Positions 8,784 through 61,834 of a stretch of DNA of 64,000 nucleotides are shown here, one piece after another. The notes beneath the pieces were generated by a model. The model worked only from the letters and a program-made list of their open reading frames with translations, had not been told where the DNA came from and did not search any database. The number at the start of each line of letters is the position of its first letter. Position 1 is the first letter of the stretch. This stretch comes from Halorientalis salina (GTDB taxonomy: Archaea > Halobacteriota > Halobacteria > Halobacteriales > Haloarculaceae), in NCBI RefSeq assembly GCF_005049285.1, contig NZ_SOSC01000001.1:62001-126000 (forward strand). The letters are read 5' to 3'. The position numbers and the translations under genes were made by a program.

Positions 8784-10412
8784 ATGAAAACGTGGCAGCG
8801 TCGGACTGCACTGTATCTCCTCGCGCTCGGGGCCATCATGCTGCTCTATTCCGTTCTGTATCACTACGCGATGCTGACCTACGAGGGGGCGACCCACTCG
8901 TTTCTCCACTCCGTCCAGGTCGTGGTCGAGACGTTCACCACGACCGGGTTCGGCTCCGACGCGCCGTGGTCGGAACCGGAGACGAACCTGCTGGTCATCG
9001 CCATGGACCTGACCGGCGTCGTGTTGATCTTCCTGGCGCTCCCGGTGTTGCTGTTCCCGATGTTCGAGGAGACGATCTCGACGACGCCGCCCAGCAGCGT
9101 CGGGGACGTCGAGGACCACGTCGTCATCTGTGCGTTTTCGCCGCGAATCCGGATGCTCATCGACGAACTCGATCTGCTGGACATCCCGTACGTCGTTGTG
9201 GAACCGGACCGCGACCGGGCGGTCGAACTCGTCGAGGACGGCGTGGACCTGATCCACGGCGACCCGGAGTCGGCGTCGGTCCTGGAGAACGCGAACCTGG
9301 GGTCGGCGCGCGCGCTCGTCGCCGACCTGGACGACTCGACGAACGCCAGCATCGTCCTGACCGGGAAAGACGTGGCCCCGGACGTGATGTGTATGACGTT
9401 CGTCACGGACCCGGAGATCGCCTCCTACCACCGGTACGCCGGGGCCGACCACGTGTTCTCGCCGCGGACGCTCATCGGTGAGAGTCTGGCCAAGAAAGTG
9501 ACCACGAGCATCAGCACCGAGGTAGGTGACGCGATCGAGATCGGCGAGGACTTCGAGATCGCCGAACTCCCCGTGCAGTCCGGGAGCGAACTCACCGGCA
9601 AGACCGTCGCCGAGAGCGGGATTCGCGAGCGAGTCGGCGCGAACGTCATCGGTGCGTGGTTCCGCGGCGAGTTCGTCAGTCCGCCCTCGCCGGACGCCCG
9701 AATCGACGAACAGACCGTGTTGCTGGTCGCTGGCCGCGAAGCGCAACTGGAGACGCTCAAAGAACTCACGCTGTCGAAACAGCGCGACCGTCGCGACGGG
9801 ACGGTCGTCATCGGCGGCTACGGCGAGGTCGGGTCCACTATTCACGCCAACCTCGACTCGGCGGGAATCCACTCGACCACCGTTGACATCGACGACCAGG
9901 ACGGGGTCGATTTCGTGGGGAACATGACCGACCAGGCGGATCTCCGGGCAGCCGGCATCGAGGAGGCCAGAACGGTCATTCTCGCGCTCGCCGACGACAC
10001 GATGACGATCTTCGCGACGCTCGCGGTCAGGGACCTCGCGCCGGACGTCGAGATCATCGCTCGCGCCGACGAGACCGAAAACGTCAGGAAACTCTATCAG
10101 GCCGGCGCCGACTACGCGCTCGCCCTGGCGACGGTCAGCGGTCGGATGCTCGCCTCGACGATCCTCGGCGAGGACGTCATTTCGCTGGATCAGCAGGTCG
10201 AAGTCGTCCGGTTCGACGCCGATGGACTCGCCGGTTCGACCCTGGCCGGAGCGGACATCCGTGCGAAAACCGGCTGTACAGTCATCGCGATCGAGCGCAA
10301 CGGCGACGTGATAACCGACCTCGACGCCGACTTCGAGATCCGGGCCGAGGACAGCGTCGTGATCGCCGGTCCCGACGAGAGCATCGCGCAGTTCGCCAAC
10401 CGATACGAGTAG
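8784..10412 (+). CDS. two-TM potassium channel fused to tandem TrkA (RCK) domains
   Basis: 542 aa. The N-terminal 100 residues have two membrane helices flanking a pore loop with selectivity filter TTTGFG (52-57). Two complete TrkA-N/TrkA-C modules follow. The first nucleotide-binding half begins at VVICAFSPR, the second at TVVIGGYGEVGS (GxGxxG). Each TrkA-C part contains the hydrophobic-rich core (VQSGSELTGKTVAESGI and ADGLAGSTLAGADI). The first Rossmann motif has lost the canonical glycines, so nucleotide binding may depend on the second module. Expected role: K+ conduction gated by a cytosolic ring, important in salt-in halophiles. ATG 8784 directly precedes the amphipathic first helix. 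Confidence 0.88.
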   Translation: MKTWQRRTALYLLALGAIMLLYSVLYHYAMLTYEGATHSFLHSVQVVVETFTTTGFGSDAPWSEPETNLLVIAMDLTGVVLIFLALPVLLFPMFEETISTTPPSSVGDVEDHVVICAFSPRIRMLIDELDLLDIPYVVVEPDRDRAVELVEDGVDLIHGDPESASVLENANLGSARALVADLDDSTNASIVLTGKDVAPDVMCMTFVTDPEIASYHRYAGADHVFSPRTLIGESLAKKVTTSISTEVGDAIEIGEDFEIAELPVQSGSELTGKTVAESGIRERVGANVIGAWFRGEFVSPPSPDARIDEQTVLLVAGREAQLETLKELTLSKQRDRRDGTVVIGGYGEVGSTIHANLDSAGIHSTTVDIDDQDGVDFVGNMTDQADLRAAGIEEARTVILALADDTMTIFATLAVRDLAPDVEIIARADETENVRKLYQAGADYALALATVSGRMLASTILGEDVISLDQQVEVVRFDADGLAGSTLAGADIRAKTGCTVIAIERNGDVITDLDADFEIRAEDSVVIAGPDESIAQFANRYE

Positions 10413-33505: not shown

Positions 33506-33590
33506 TGCGCGGGACCGGATTTGAACCGGCGGACCCCTACGGGACAGCGTCCTAAGCGCTGCGCCTTTGGCCTAGCTCGGCAACCCGCGC
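33506..33590 (-). tRNA. tRNA-Leu (anticodon TAG)
   Basis: 85 nt on the minus strand. Acceptor stem GCGCGGG/CCCGCGC pairs over 7 bp; discriminator base A73 at 33506. The D-arm has the leucine-type GAGCTAGGCCAAAGGC. The anticodon stem CAGCG/CGCTG encloses loop CTTAGGA, so the anticodon is TAG. A long class II variable arm (CCCGTAGGG) and T-arm GCCGG-TTCAAAT-CCGGT complete it. No intron is seen, and CCA is not encoded. It is followed downstream by two copies of its own 3' end. Confidence 0.96.
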
Positions 33591-57773: not shown

Positions 57774-58247
57774 TCAGGCGTCTTCGTAGACCCAGGGCTC
57801 GTCGGCGCGCTCGTAGTCGACGAGTTCGTCCTCGTCGAAGAACAGTTCGATCTCGCGCTCGTTTGCGCCCTCGTCCTCGTGGTCGGAGCCGTGGATGACG
57901 TTCTGCCCGAGGTCCAGTCCGAGGTCACCGCGGATGGTGCCCGGCTGGGCTTCCTTGGGGTCCGTCGTGCCCATCATCTGGCGGACCTGGCGGGTCGCGT
58001 CGGCACCCTCCCAGACCATCGCCATGACGGGACCGGACGTGATGAACGCCACGAGCTCGTCGAAGAACGGTTTGTCCTCGTGCTCGCCGTAGTGTTGCTC
58101 GGCGAGGTCCTGGTCGATCTGCATGAACTTCGCCGCGGCCAGCTTCAGCCCGCGCTCTTCGAGTCGACCGATGATTTCGCCCACGAGTCCGCGCTGGACG
58201 CCGTCTGGCTTGACCATGACGAACGTGCGTTCGTCGTGATGGCTCAT
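57774..58247 (-). CDS. ndk: nucleoside diphosphate kinase
   Basis: 157 aa, normal length. It balances NTP pools by phosphate transfer through a phospho-His. Markers: [53 protein letters not shown] and the active-site His in [18 protein letters not shown]. Last gene of the L7Ae-S28e-L24e-Ndk operon; it starts overlapping the L24e stop by 4 nt. The C-terminus is more acidic than in mesophiles. Confidence 0.95.
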
Positions 58248-58636
58248 GCCTCGGCCTCCTCTTCGGCCTCGTCGTCCTCGGTGTCCGCGTCAGCTTCGTC
58301 CGTCTCCGCCGGCTCCTCGTCCTCGGCGTCAGCCTCGTCGGCTTCGGCGTCTTCCTCGGCCGCTTCGAGGTCGGGGGCCGCTTCGGAGTCGTCGGCTTCC
58401 TCGGTTTCCGGTTCGGGTTCCGGCTCGCTCTCTTCCGCCTGCTGTGTGGCCGGTCCACCCGCCGCCTGCCCGGACGCGGTCCACTCTACCTCGCGTGGCT
58501 CGCGTCCGAGGTCGGCGTTCTTCTCGCATTTCGAGGAGCAGTAGTCGACGGTCGACCCGTCGTTTCGGACGAGCAGCGTGCCCGTCCCGGGCTCGATGTC
58601 GTCACCACAGTAGTCACACTCGCGTGTTCGTGGCAT
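58244..58636 (-). CDS. rpl24e: 50S ribosomal protein L24e with long acidic tail
   Basis: 130 aa. The first 55 residues are a normal L24e with a zinc ribbon: REC-x2-C (CDYCGDD) and [11 protein letters not shown] tail of about 70 residues rich in Glu, Asp and Ala follows ([14 protein letters not shown] ... [10 protein letters not shown]). Archaeal L24e is usually 55-70 aa, so the extension roughly doubles it. The tail is low-complexity and will be disordered. It overlaps ndk by 4 nt and S28e by 1 nt (TAATG). Confidence 0.92.
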
Positions 58637-58866
58637 TATTGGCCTCCAATCTGGTCAGCTTCGCGGGCGGTCTCGCGGAGCTGCAACACGTCGCCCTCGC
58701 GGACTGGCCCGAGGACGTTCCGCGTGATGATTCGACCCTGGTTTTCGCCTTTGCGGATTCGACACTTGACCTGCATGGCTTCACCGTGCATGCCGGTCCG
58801 CCCGACGACCTCGATGACCTCTGCGGGCGTCGAACCGCCGTCGCCTTCGGATTCCTCTGCACTCAT
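58636..58866 (-). CDS. rps28e: 30S ribosomal protein S28e
   Basis: 76 aa, normal length. Core: [55 protein letters not shown], the S1-like barrel of S28e. It lies 9 nt after the L7Ae stop and 1 nt overlapped with L24e. N-terminus is acidic and Ser/Gly-rich, a halophile trait. Confidence 0.96.
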
Positions 58867-58875
58867 CTAAACCAC

Positions 58876-59238
58876 CTACTGGAGGTCCTCGAGTTTCTCG
58901 GCGATGTCGTCGACGTCGCCGCTGGCGTCACCGGCGTCGGTGACGGCTGCGGCGGCACTGCCGACTTCGAGGCCGGCTGCGTGTCCGACATCGTCCTGAG
59001 ACTCGACGAAGAGATAGGGAACGTCCTTCTCTTCGGCCAGCTCGGGGAGATGCATGACGATCTCCTCGGGCTGAACGTCCTCTGCGACGAAGACGAGGTC
59101 CGCGTTGCCTCGCTCGACCGCTTTGGTCGTCTCGTTCGTTCCTTTCTTTACGCTACCTGTGTCTCGTGCTACCTCGAGCGCTTCGAGGGCGTCCTCGGCG
59201 AGATCCGCCGGAACATCGAAATCAACGTATACTGGCAT
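58876..59238 (-). CDS. rpl7ae: ribosomal protein L7Ae (kink-turn binding)
   Basis: 120 aa. It binds kink-turn RNA in the 50S subunit, box C/D and H/ACA sRNPs and RNase P. Core motifs: [51 protein letters not shown]. First gene of the operon with S28e, L24e and Ndk. Unlike most genes here it has a strong Shine-Dalgarno sequence, GGAGGTGA, 7 nt before ATG 59238 and a long leader with a stable RNA structure, so translation may be regulated. L7Ae autoregulation through its own 5' leader is known in another archaeon. Confidence 0.96.
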
Positions 59239-59400
59239 GGTTGTTCACCTCCCGCGCGTGGGCTCGCGCTCCCCCGCCTGGAGGGCCGCTGTAACCCGGC
59301 TTCGGGTGCTGCCGACGTGAGTCGGCTGCTCCGTGGCTGAGTTACAGCCGGCCCGATGTAGTCCTAAGAGGCTAGGAGCATCATCAACCCCGCGCAGGCT
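59239..59400 (-). ncRNA. structured 5' leader of the L7Ae operon
   Basis: The 358-nt gap between L7Ae and TmcA has no gene. On the L7Ae strand a 13-bp stem with one bulged base is formed by 59283-59295 and 59341-59354. It encloses a hairpin at 59295-59306 (4-5 bp, 4-nt loop) and a second hairpin at 59311-59326 (6 bp, 4-nt loop). A further 5+4 bp hairpin lies at 59357-59386 and contains TGATGA, a box C-like sequence. The TATA-like TTTTAA at 59425-59430 would start RNA near 59400. It is a candidate autoregulatory element or a separate small RNA. Confidence 0.5.
59245..59252 (-). promoter_or_regulatory. Shine-Dalgarno sequence of L7Ae
   Basis: GGAGGTGA on the minus strand, complementary to the 3' end of archaeal 16S rRNA, ending 6-7 nt before ATG 59238. 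It shows that this operon is translated from a leadered mRNA, in contrast to most starts in the window. Confidence 0.75.
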
Positions 59401-59596
59401 GTATCCGTCATTGAACCATGCCCTGTTAAAAGCGCTTTCGATGCCGAGAAGAGCGTGTCAGAACCCCGCACATGCCTGAGGACCAATGAGACCATACGGA
59501 CCCCTGCTCGAGCCCCGTTTTCCCCCGTCTCCTGTCGACGGCTCTCGAAAACGACCCATCGGCACATCCAAAGGCCCCGACCGTCACTGACCGAGT

Positions 59597-61834
59597 ATGT
59601 TCGCGGAGGTCGTCGACGCGCTTCGCGCCGAGGCGCGAGCGACGAACGAACGCCGCCTGCTGGTGTTCACTGGGGAGCCATCCAGTACCCGAGAGAGGGC
59701 GGCCGAGGCGTTGGATGCGGCCGCCATCGAAATGACCGACACCACGCTGATCGGCCCCGAAAACGCTCTCCGCTGTGAGCATCTCTCAGTGGCTCAATCC
59801 GGAGACCTGCTCGGGCGGACCCGCGACGCTGTCGTCCTCGATTTACACGACGAGTGCCGACCGAACGCGATTGGCCGGGCCGTCGGTGCCGTCGACGGCG
59901 GCGGCCTTCTGGTACTCCTGACGCCGCCGCTCGACGAGTGGCCGGTCCGTCGCGACGAGTTCGACGAGACCCTGGCGGTTCCGCCGAGTTCCCTCGGCGA
60001 TGTCTCGGGGAACTTCCGAACTCGCCTGGTCGAAACCCTCCGGGCACATCCGGGGATCGCCATCGTCGACGCCGACGACGGGACGGTCGAACGCGACGGG
60101 CTGACCTACCCGGCACCCCGCTGTCGATCACCGAACGACGACCTCGCTCCCCCCGCCGACGCCGACTTCTCCGACGACATCTACGACGCTTGTCTCACCG
60201 CCGATCAGGTGTCCGCTGTTCGAGCGTTCGAGGATCTCCGGACCGACGGACGAGCGCTCGTCGTCGAGGCCGACCGCGGCCGGGGGAAATCCAGTGCCGC
60301 GGGACTCGCCGCCGCCGCACTGGCGCTCGACGGCCGGCACGTACTCGTGACCGCCCCGCAGTACCGCAACGCCGCCGAGGCGTTCGCTCGCGCTCGGGAA
60401 CGACTCGATGACGCGGGCGAAACGGCGGACCACACCGACGAATCCCGGGAGATACGGACCGACACCGGCCGAATCCGGTTTCGCCGCGCGGCCGAGGCGA
60501 CTGACCTTCCGGGGGACCCCGACGTGGTCGTCGTCGACGAGGCGGCTGCCCTCCCGGTCCGGGTCCTCGAATCGTTCCTGGATGCGCCCGCTGTCGCCTT
60601 CGCCACGACGATCCACGGGTACGAGGGGGCCGGCCGTGGATTTTCCGTCCGATTCAGGGACCGACTCGAAGAGAGCGATCACGAAATGACCGAACGCACG
60701 CTCGAGGAACCGATCCGGTACGCCGGCGGTGATCCGGTGGAGGTCTGGGCGTTCCGCACGCTCCTGCTCGATGCCCGCCCGGCCGTCGAACAGGTCGTCG
60801 AGACGGCGACACCCGACGCCGTCGAGTACACGCGACTTTCGGCCGATTCCCTCCTCGCCGACGAACACCTGCTCGGAGAAGTGTTCGGCCTCCTCGTCCT
60901 GGCTCACTACCGGACGGAACCCGACGACCTGGCCCGCCTGCTCGACGCCCCGAACGTCGCTGTCCGGGCGCTTACTCACGAAGGTAACATTATCTCGGTG
61001 GTGCTACTGGCTCGTGAAGGTGGCCTCTCGGCCGAGACGCGAGCGGGGATGTACGATGGGGGACGCATCCGGGGAAATATGCTCCCCGACGTGCTCACGA
61101 CACAACTCCGGGACGAGTCAGCGGGGGCTCCGGAGGGGCTGCGGGTGTTGCGTATCGCCACGCACCACGCTGTCCGATCGCGCGGTTTCGGGTCGCGACT
61201 CCTCGCCGACGTCCGCGAGGAATTTGGGGCTGACCTGGACTGGCTGGGCGTCGGCTACGGTGCCACGCCCGCACTGCTTTCCTTCTGGGCGCGGAACGGC
61301 TACACGCCAGTGCACCTCTCGACGACCCGCAACGACACCAGCGGCGAGTACTCGGCACTGATGGTGGACCCCACGAGCGACGCCGGCCGCGACCTCGTCG
61401 ACCGCCACGCCGACCAGTTCCTCGACCGTATCGGCGGCGTCCTGGCGGACCCGCTCTCCGACGCCGATTCCGACGTGGTCAGGGCGACGCTGTCGGCCGT
61501 CGACCGTGAGATCGACCCCGAATTAGCCGACTGGGAGTGGCGACACGTCGCCAGCGCCGCCTTCGGTCCGGGGCTGTTCGACATGGCTCCCGACGCGTAT
61601 CGGCGGCTCGCCGTGACCTACTTCGCGTCCGGTCGAATCGACTCGCTGTCCGACCGACGGGAGCGCCTGCTCGTCCTGAAGGCCCTCCAGGGGCGTCCCT
61701 GGGACGAGGTCGCCGAGGGTCTCGGGTACCACTCGACTGCCCAGTGCATGCGCGCGCTCGGTGACGCGCTCGAACCGCTCGTCGACGCCTTCGGCTCCGA
61801 GGCCGCGATCCGGGAGGCCGATCGATATCGGTGA
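59597..61834 (+). CDS. tmcA: tRNA(Met) cytidine acetyltransferase TmcA
   Basis: 745 aa. It acetylates N4 of cytidine in tRNA (and, in archaea, other RNAs via the same family), using acetyl-CoA and ATP. Order: N-terminal DUF1726-type domain (1-165), RNA helicase-like domain with Walker A EADRGRGKSSAAG (about 223-232) and DEAAALP, GNAT acetyltransferase domain (VLRIATHHAVRSRGFGSRLLADV) and a C-terminal tRNA-binding region. Length and motifs match the bacterial and archaeal enzyme. It is divergent from L7Ae; its stop TGA overlaps the DUF456 GTG start. Confidence 0.94.
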   Translation: MFAEVVDALRAEARATNERRLLVFTGEPSSTRERAAEALDAAAIEMTDTTLIGPENALRCEHLSVAQSGDLLGRTRDAVVLDLHDECRPNAIGRAVGAVDGGGLLVLLTPPLDEWPVRRDEFDETLAVPPSSLGDVSGNFRTRLVETLRAHPGIAIVDADDGTVERDGLTYPAPRCRSPNDDLAPPADADFSDDIYDACLTADQVSAVRAFEDLRTDGRALVVEADRGRGKSSAAGLAAAALALDGRHVLVTAPQYRNAAEAFARARERLDDAGETADHTDESREIRTDTGRIRFRRAAEATDLPGDPDVVVVDEAAALPVRVLESFLDAPAVAFATTIHGYEGAGRGFSVRFRDRLEESDHEMTERTLEEPIRYAGGDPVEVWAFRTLLLDARPAVEQVVETATPDAVEYTRLSADSLLADEHLLGEVFGLLVLAHYRTEPDDLARLLDAPNVAVRALTHEGNIISVVLLAREGGLSAETRAGMYDGGRIRGNMLPDVLTTQLRDESAGAPEGLRVLRIATHHAVRSRGFGSRLLADVREEFGADLDWLGVGYGATPALLSFWARNGYTPVHLSTTRNDTSGEYSALMVDPTSDAGRDLVDRHADQFLDRIGGVLADPLSDADSDVVRATLSAVDREIDPELADWEWRHVASAAFGPGLFDMAPDAYRRLAVTYFASGRIDSLSDRRERLLVLKALQGRPWDEVAEGLGYHSTAQCMRALGDALEPLVDAFGSEAAIREADRYR

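Follow-up and report, generated by a model that had tools for sequence, protein, structure and literature searches.

A predicted autoregulatory kink-turn leader on the L7Ae mRNA of haloarchaea

The principle that L7Ae controls its own synthesis through the leader of its mRNA is already known. Repression of L7Ae translation through a leader kink-turn was demonstrated in Sulfolobus (Daume et al. 2017, PMC5539422), in a study that also aligned 121 archaeal leaders and reported high conservation only for Sulfolobales. An upstream piece of ~50 bp from Haloferax volcanii gave downregulation in an E. coli reporter in the same study; that piece used a stand-in bulged strand, while another was noted “further upstream” in the alignment. 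Six L7Ae leaders have also been the subject of an RNA study (PMC6298567). In the published leaders (PMC5539422, PMC6298567) the stems are short and weak, and the RNA is proposed to gain its structure only when protein binds. Related feedback is found in yeast, where L30e, a protein of the L7Ae family, acts on a kink-turn of its own transcript (PMC6298567), but there both splicing and translation are regulated, in a eukaryote and through an unrelated RNA. Cis-regulatory RNAs known in archaea are few; one survey (Eckert and Weinberg 2020, PMC7247131) describes leaders of S15 in Halobacteria and Methanomicrobia and of eL15 in Euryarchaeota that, like the element described here, covary, stand ahead of a ribosomal-protein gene and are restricted to one lineage.

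We analyzed a 64,000-nucleotide stretch of the Halorientalis salina genome (the window), in which a structured leader lies ahead of the L7Ae gene. We read this element, with a probability of about 85%, as an autoregulatory kink-turn leader of the haloarchaeal L7Ae mRNA. It shares with the published leaders the gene, a GAU-bulge kink-turn, tandem G-A pairs and the adjoining Shine-Dalgarno sequence (PMC5539422, PMC6298567), yet it differs in its size (~90–200 nt), its C-helix of 11–12 bp, its long covarying NC-helix, its variable cap, its near-universality in the order and a structure predicted to be stable without protein. This large form, predicted to be pre-folded, is a variant of a known principle. 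The main texts of the papers searched do not describe the long-range structure seen in haloarchaea, nor that it covaries and is nearly universal, and the leader is not among the 20 new motifs in Table 1 of PMC7247131; part of it may have been drawn earlier in the supplements of PMC5539422 or PMC7247131.

Locus, promoter and bounds of the leader

The leader occupies the minus strand at 59239-59405, between the divergent tmcA (59597-61834, plus strand) and the L7Ae gene rpl7ae (58876-59238, minus strand; ATG at 59238-59236), as read from the sequence and the list of open reading frames. It is the leader of the operon rpl7ae-rps28e-rpl24e-ndk, whose later genes follow on the minus strand at 58636-58866, 58244-58636 and 57774-58247; the names rps28e, rpl24e, ndk and tmcA are ones that we take from sequence knowledge. 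The genome holds a single L7Ae match (E 5e-72). An initial annotation had placed a structured, Shine-Dalgarno-containing leader at 59239-59430, a span that proved right to within ~25 nt, the functional element being about 59405-59239. The Shine-Dalgarno motif it had noted at a proper distance from the ATG is GGAGGUGA (59245-59252, minus strand), which ends 6 nt before the start codon.

Its remark that no TATA box stands at leaderless distance was equally sound, as the TATA-like CTTTTAA sits at 59432-59426. This belongs to a putative BRE/TATA-like promoter of the operon, AAAGCGCTTTTAA (59426-59438, minus strand). In 77/80 related loci, 26–28 nt separate the TATA-box TTTA from the U of a conserved UACAGCC downstream, and in two of the remaining three our script had chosen a second TTTA. 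This spacing predicts a transcription start at the conserved UACAGCC (59402-59403, minus strand), at or a few bases from the 5′ end of the element, rather than within 20 nt of the ATG. Leaders predicted from the TATA spacing are about 90–200 nt long, and related leaders measure about 85 to 195 nt. The BRE/TATA region also contains a perfect palindrome, AAAGCGCTTT, found at the same place in many of the related loci (L002-L159); the exact sequence GAAAGCGCTTTTA occurs once in the H. salina genome and in 78/177 loci, some of them redundant. The palindrome may be where a regulator binds, or an unusual form of BRE. An upstream mini-ORF starting at AUGAUG was also considered and rejected, because its reading frame is not conserved (80 loci, by eye).

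Fold, covariation and the kink-turn core

The 192-nt stretch first annotated has a minimum free energy of -94 kcal/mol against a shuffle mean of -72 (z -4.72), and none of 200 dinucleotide shuffles folds as low; computed stabilities, here and below, are rough, as neither G-A pairs nor molar salt enter the energy model. What the initial annotation described as a 13-bp stem with one bulge corresponds to P1, the C-helix, which in the minimum-energy fold joins ~59398-59386 to 59263-59251 with one bulged A. As counted for covariation, P1 comprises 11 pairs and one bulge: its 5′ strand is CCUGCGCGGGG (59388-59398, minus strand) and its 3′ strand is CCCACGCGCGGG (59251-59262, minus strand; A59259 bulged), the last two pairs taking the first GG of the Shine-Dalgarno sequence. 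P1 pairs the predicted 5′ end of the mRNA with the bases immediately ahead of the Shine-Dalgarno sequence. Above it stands P2, the NC-helix, with nine to ten pairs and an internal irregularity, formed by UGCUCCUAGCC (59370-59380) and GGCGGGGGAGCG (59267-59278), both on the minus strand and both supported by covariation. Comparison of leaders further defined a conserved apical-loop motif, AGGAC (59361-59365, minus strand), which is AGGGA in other lineages. The cap also carries a species-specific insert, a 72-nt hairpin in the fold (about 59283-59354, minus strand), which is real but missing or different in congeners; 94-nt leaders that lack it occur in the same genus, and a search of the H. salina genome for duplicates found it in single copy. 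Among the 80 haloarchaeal L7Ae loci fetched, all those with enough upstream sequence follow one pattern, allowing for lineage-specific changes: TATA box, UACAGCCUGCGCGGGGUUGAUGAUGCUCCUAGCC, AGGAC-type loop, variable cap, GGCGGGGGAGCGCGAGCCCACGCGCAGGAGGUGA and start codon.

Covariation was assessed in two sets. The first, A1, comprises 55 leaders aligned from sequence alone; here 94.4% of cells were paired (88.5 in shuffles; 39–55% in slid controls), and double changes fell in 12/20 pairs, with 61 double-change cells as against 13 in shuffles. None of 500 shuffles reached the real value on any measure. The second, A2, comprises 80 matches, nearly all from outside the covariance model yet aligned by it and so leaning towards it; double changes were present in 17/20 pairs and 125 cells (0/500 shuffles). 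Such counts are inflated by sequence relatedness. Within P1, 7/11 pairs covaried in A1 and 9/11 in A2. A mutual-information scan, blind to the proposed structure, ranked column pairs 11-207, 14-204 and 13-205 highest, all of them in P1, and hinted at an extra P2 pair (32-185). The compensatory changes that the initial annotation had proposed to seek with a covariance model over haloarchaeal L7Ae leaders are thus present, and its view of the leader as a regulatory element is supported by these changes, by conservation and by the distance of the putative promoter from the ATG.

A kink-turn had not been clearly identified beforehand; we found one at the junction of P1 and P2, and its core is GA/GA. 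In this internal loop UUGAUGA on the 5′ side (59387-59381) faces C-GA (59266-59264), so that the UGAUGA element previously drawn as a hairpin of its own is instead one strand of a long-range structure. Leader comparison divides the bulged strand (59381-59387, minus strand) into a UU-GAU loop and G1b-A2b (59382-59381), and assigns G2n-A1n to the non-bulged strand (59264-59265, minus strand), with C59266 ahead. Across 129 distinct leaders, the second GA of the bulged strand is invariant (129/129), the non-bulged strand is GA in 117 and AA in 12, and the loop is UUGAU in 90. The AA form was seen in leaders of family f12 (L108, L111-L113, L118 and L119, and further L127, L131, L134, L135, L144 and L151). 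Several lineages have lost the first GA of UUGAUGA (UUGUGA, UCAUGA), which shows that constraint acts on the second; the GAU ahead of that second GA is the bulge reported for published L7Ae leader kink-turns (PMC6298567). Most lineages have an additional base opposite 3b, where the motif departs from the textbook kink-turn, as it also does in the 12 leaders with AA, whereas others lack this base and have a standard kink-turn (for example AGU-C-GA in L018, L024 and L038). With a GAU bulge and tandem G-A/A-G pairs between two covarying helices, the element reads as a kink-turn at the level of sequence. Ahead of the bulge stands a U opposite G, or a G-C pair, and not C-G; under the rules of PMC6298567, ions by themselves should kink such a kink-turn poorly, but all the kink-turns studied there fold upon L7Ae binding. 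Our findings suggest that the ~50-bp piece used in the one H. volcanii reporter test (PMC5539422) was too short to contain the true bulged strand.

Distribution across the order

A covariance model, R1, was built from A1 and run on whole genomes. It matched 132/146 sampled genomes of the order and 119/122 of the near-complete ones, with one match per genome except in one fragmented assembly, so the leader is near-ubiquitous in the sampled haloarchaea. All 131 matches whose coordinates were compared lie ≤12 nt from the L7Ae start, and no other site was matched in the H. salina genome; the element is present in 8/8 genomes of its genus. Across a phylum sample of 295 genomes, the sole match outside the order was weak (G220, E 6e-4). 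Two genomes of family f13 that the model did not match carry diverged versions recognizable by eye (L102, L105).

Five small-genome relatives in the same order (families f9 and f11; L100, L101, L104, L106 and L107) have a short kink-turn hairpin beside the Shine-Dalgarno sequence in place of the long leader, for example GCGU-GAU-GA-AGCGC-GCUA-GCGCU-GA-ACG-AGGUG. These short hairpins show a compensatory A-U/C-G change directly after the GA pairs, and two of three that were folded prefer another minimum-energy form, as expected for a switch that folds on binding. The short-hairpin leaders are of the published kind (PMC5539422, PMC6298567). Within one order the same feedback thus appears to be built in two ways: small-genome relatives have a short hairpin that competes with other folds, and the rest have a large leader predicted to be stable.

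Proposed action and alternative readings

By analogy with the described systems, L7Ae very likely binds the predicted leader kink-turn and likely represses translation through it, since the motif stands at the right gene and beside the Shine-Dalgarno sequence, and L7Ae is known for both activities. P1 would pair the 5′ end of the transcript with the bases just ahead of the Shine-Dalgarno sequence, carrying the kink-turn, P2 and the variable cap above it. Once L7Ae outnumbers its rRNA and guide-RNA targets it would bind the kink-turn, and binding would mainly bend the RNA sharply and hold P1 beside the Shine-Dalgarno sequence; L7Ae and the folded-back P2 cap would then obstruct the 30S subunit, and translation of L7Ae, possibly of the whole operon, would drop. 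The Shine-Dalgarno core begins ≤6 nt from the last P1 base in 79/80 leaders. Plain sequestration is a weak explanation, as only two of the eight Shine-Dalgarno bases lie within P1. The computed probability that P1 is paired without protein is 0.89–1.0 in 80/80 leaders. We therefore favor a model in which L7Ae would act by kinking and by steric blocking of the 30S subunit rather than by forming the stem. A stem unstable without L7Ae, a property proposed for the published leaders and not a criterion for binding, is not what is predicted here, and a pre-folded stem would conflict with PMC6298567, which requires a leader that lacks structure until protein binds. This suggests that the published fold-on-binding model would not cover the haloarchaeal form.

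Two other pairings near the Shine-Dalgarno sequence were rejected. An alternative CUCC/AGGA hairpin switch does not hold in general, as lineages in which UUCG or UUUG replaces CUCC retain AGGGA (L035, L037, L056). An additional pairing of a 5′ UAC with the GUG of the Shine-Dalgarno sequence is possible in most leaders and accounts for a predicted half-pairing of its core, but it shows no covariation and GGAGGAG lineages retain UAC.

P1 and P2 are similar in length, and judging by this a kink would bring the P2 cap with its AGGA/AGGGA loop towards the Shine-Dalgarno sequence. Only tentatively do we extend this to a switch in which the stems stay permanently folded and the protein-induced kink lays that loop on the Shine-Dalgarno sequence for a second contact, with ribosome, RNA or protein. 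The loop (AGGA, AGGGA or a close variant) is kept in 128/129 distinct leaders, for which neither base pairing nor the L7Ae model gives a reason, and it could also point to a leader that answers another ligand or trigger, such as eS28, eL24, salt or temperature, with the kink-turn merely architectural, as kink-turns are in riboswitches. Stems predicted to be stable without protein would also suit such a leader. We nevertheless consider it unlikely, as archaeal L7Ae folds every kink-turn analyzed (PMC6298567), the operon opens with the L7Ae gene, and several archaea show, or give indications of, this feedback (PMC5539422).

The initial annotation had also allowed that the leader hides an independent small RNA, and it might carry, or be processed into, a box C/D or H/ACA guide RNA that uses L7Ae in trans. 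UUGAUGA does resemble box C, and the opposite strand is CUGA (box D) in Haloarcula and some others, the whole being a motif of the kind that L7Ae recognizes in box C/D RNAs. Most lineages, however, have GCGA, UCGA or GCAA in place of box D, the conserved strands sit in covarying helices and are not free to act as guides, and the element stands in an mRNA leader without guide regions; a box C/D guide was rejected on these grounds, an Rfam match to sR19 being non-significant. sR-h45 is an H/ACA RNA. An H/ACA rRNA guide had been considered first, in view of the H/ACA hairpins that serve 23S pseudouridines in haloarchaea (PMC2584109) and of UUACAG in the window's apical hairpin, but the conserved part is not a guide pocket, the ACA is paired in the fold, and the apical hairpin, the sole part long enough to be an independent RNA, is absent or different within the genus. 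Rfam 15 at gathering thresholds returned only a tRNA (33506-33590) across the whole window and no family for the leader; matches to mir-3130 and mir-673 at relaxed thresholds are hairpin artefacts. A guide RNA is thus highly improbable. Scarcely credible is a leader that merely protects or stabilizes the mRNA or keeps the Shine-Dalgarno sequence open without feedback: nearly all loci have P1 starting a few bases from the predicted 5′ end, which would suit shielding of that end, and most of the Shine-Dalgarno sequence lies outside P1, but the near-invariant GA/GA kink-turn core and the exclusive link to L7Ae would go unexplained.

Given the covariance model and clear bases to mutate, the predicted kink-turn leader can be tested in the tractable H. 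volcanii. As minor observations, the 23S rRNA of the H. salina assembly breaks off at a contig end, so that just its first half is present (G000:C17:5-1382), and ARAGORN calls a tRNA-Ser(cga) in the window at 10177-10256 (plus strand) that the Rfam tRNA model does not report at its gathering score; this call may be spurious or may mark an unusual tRNA.
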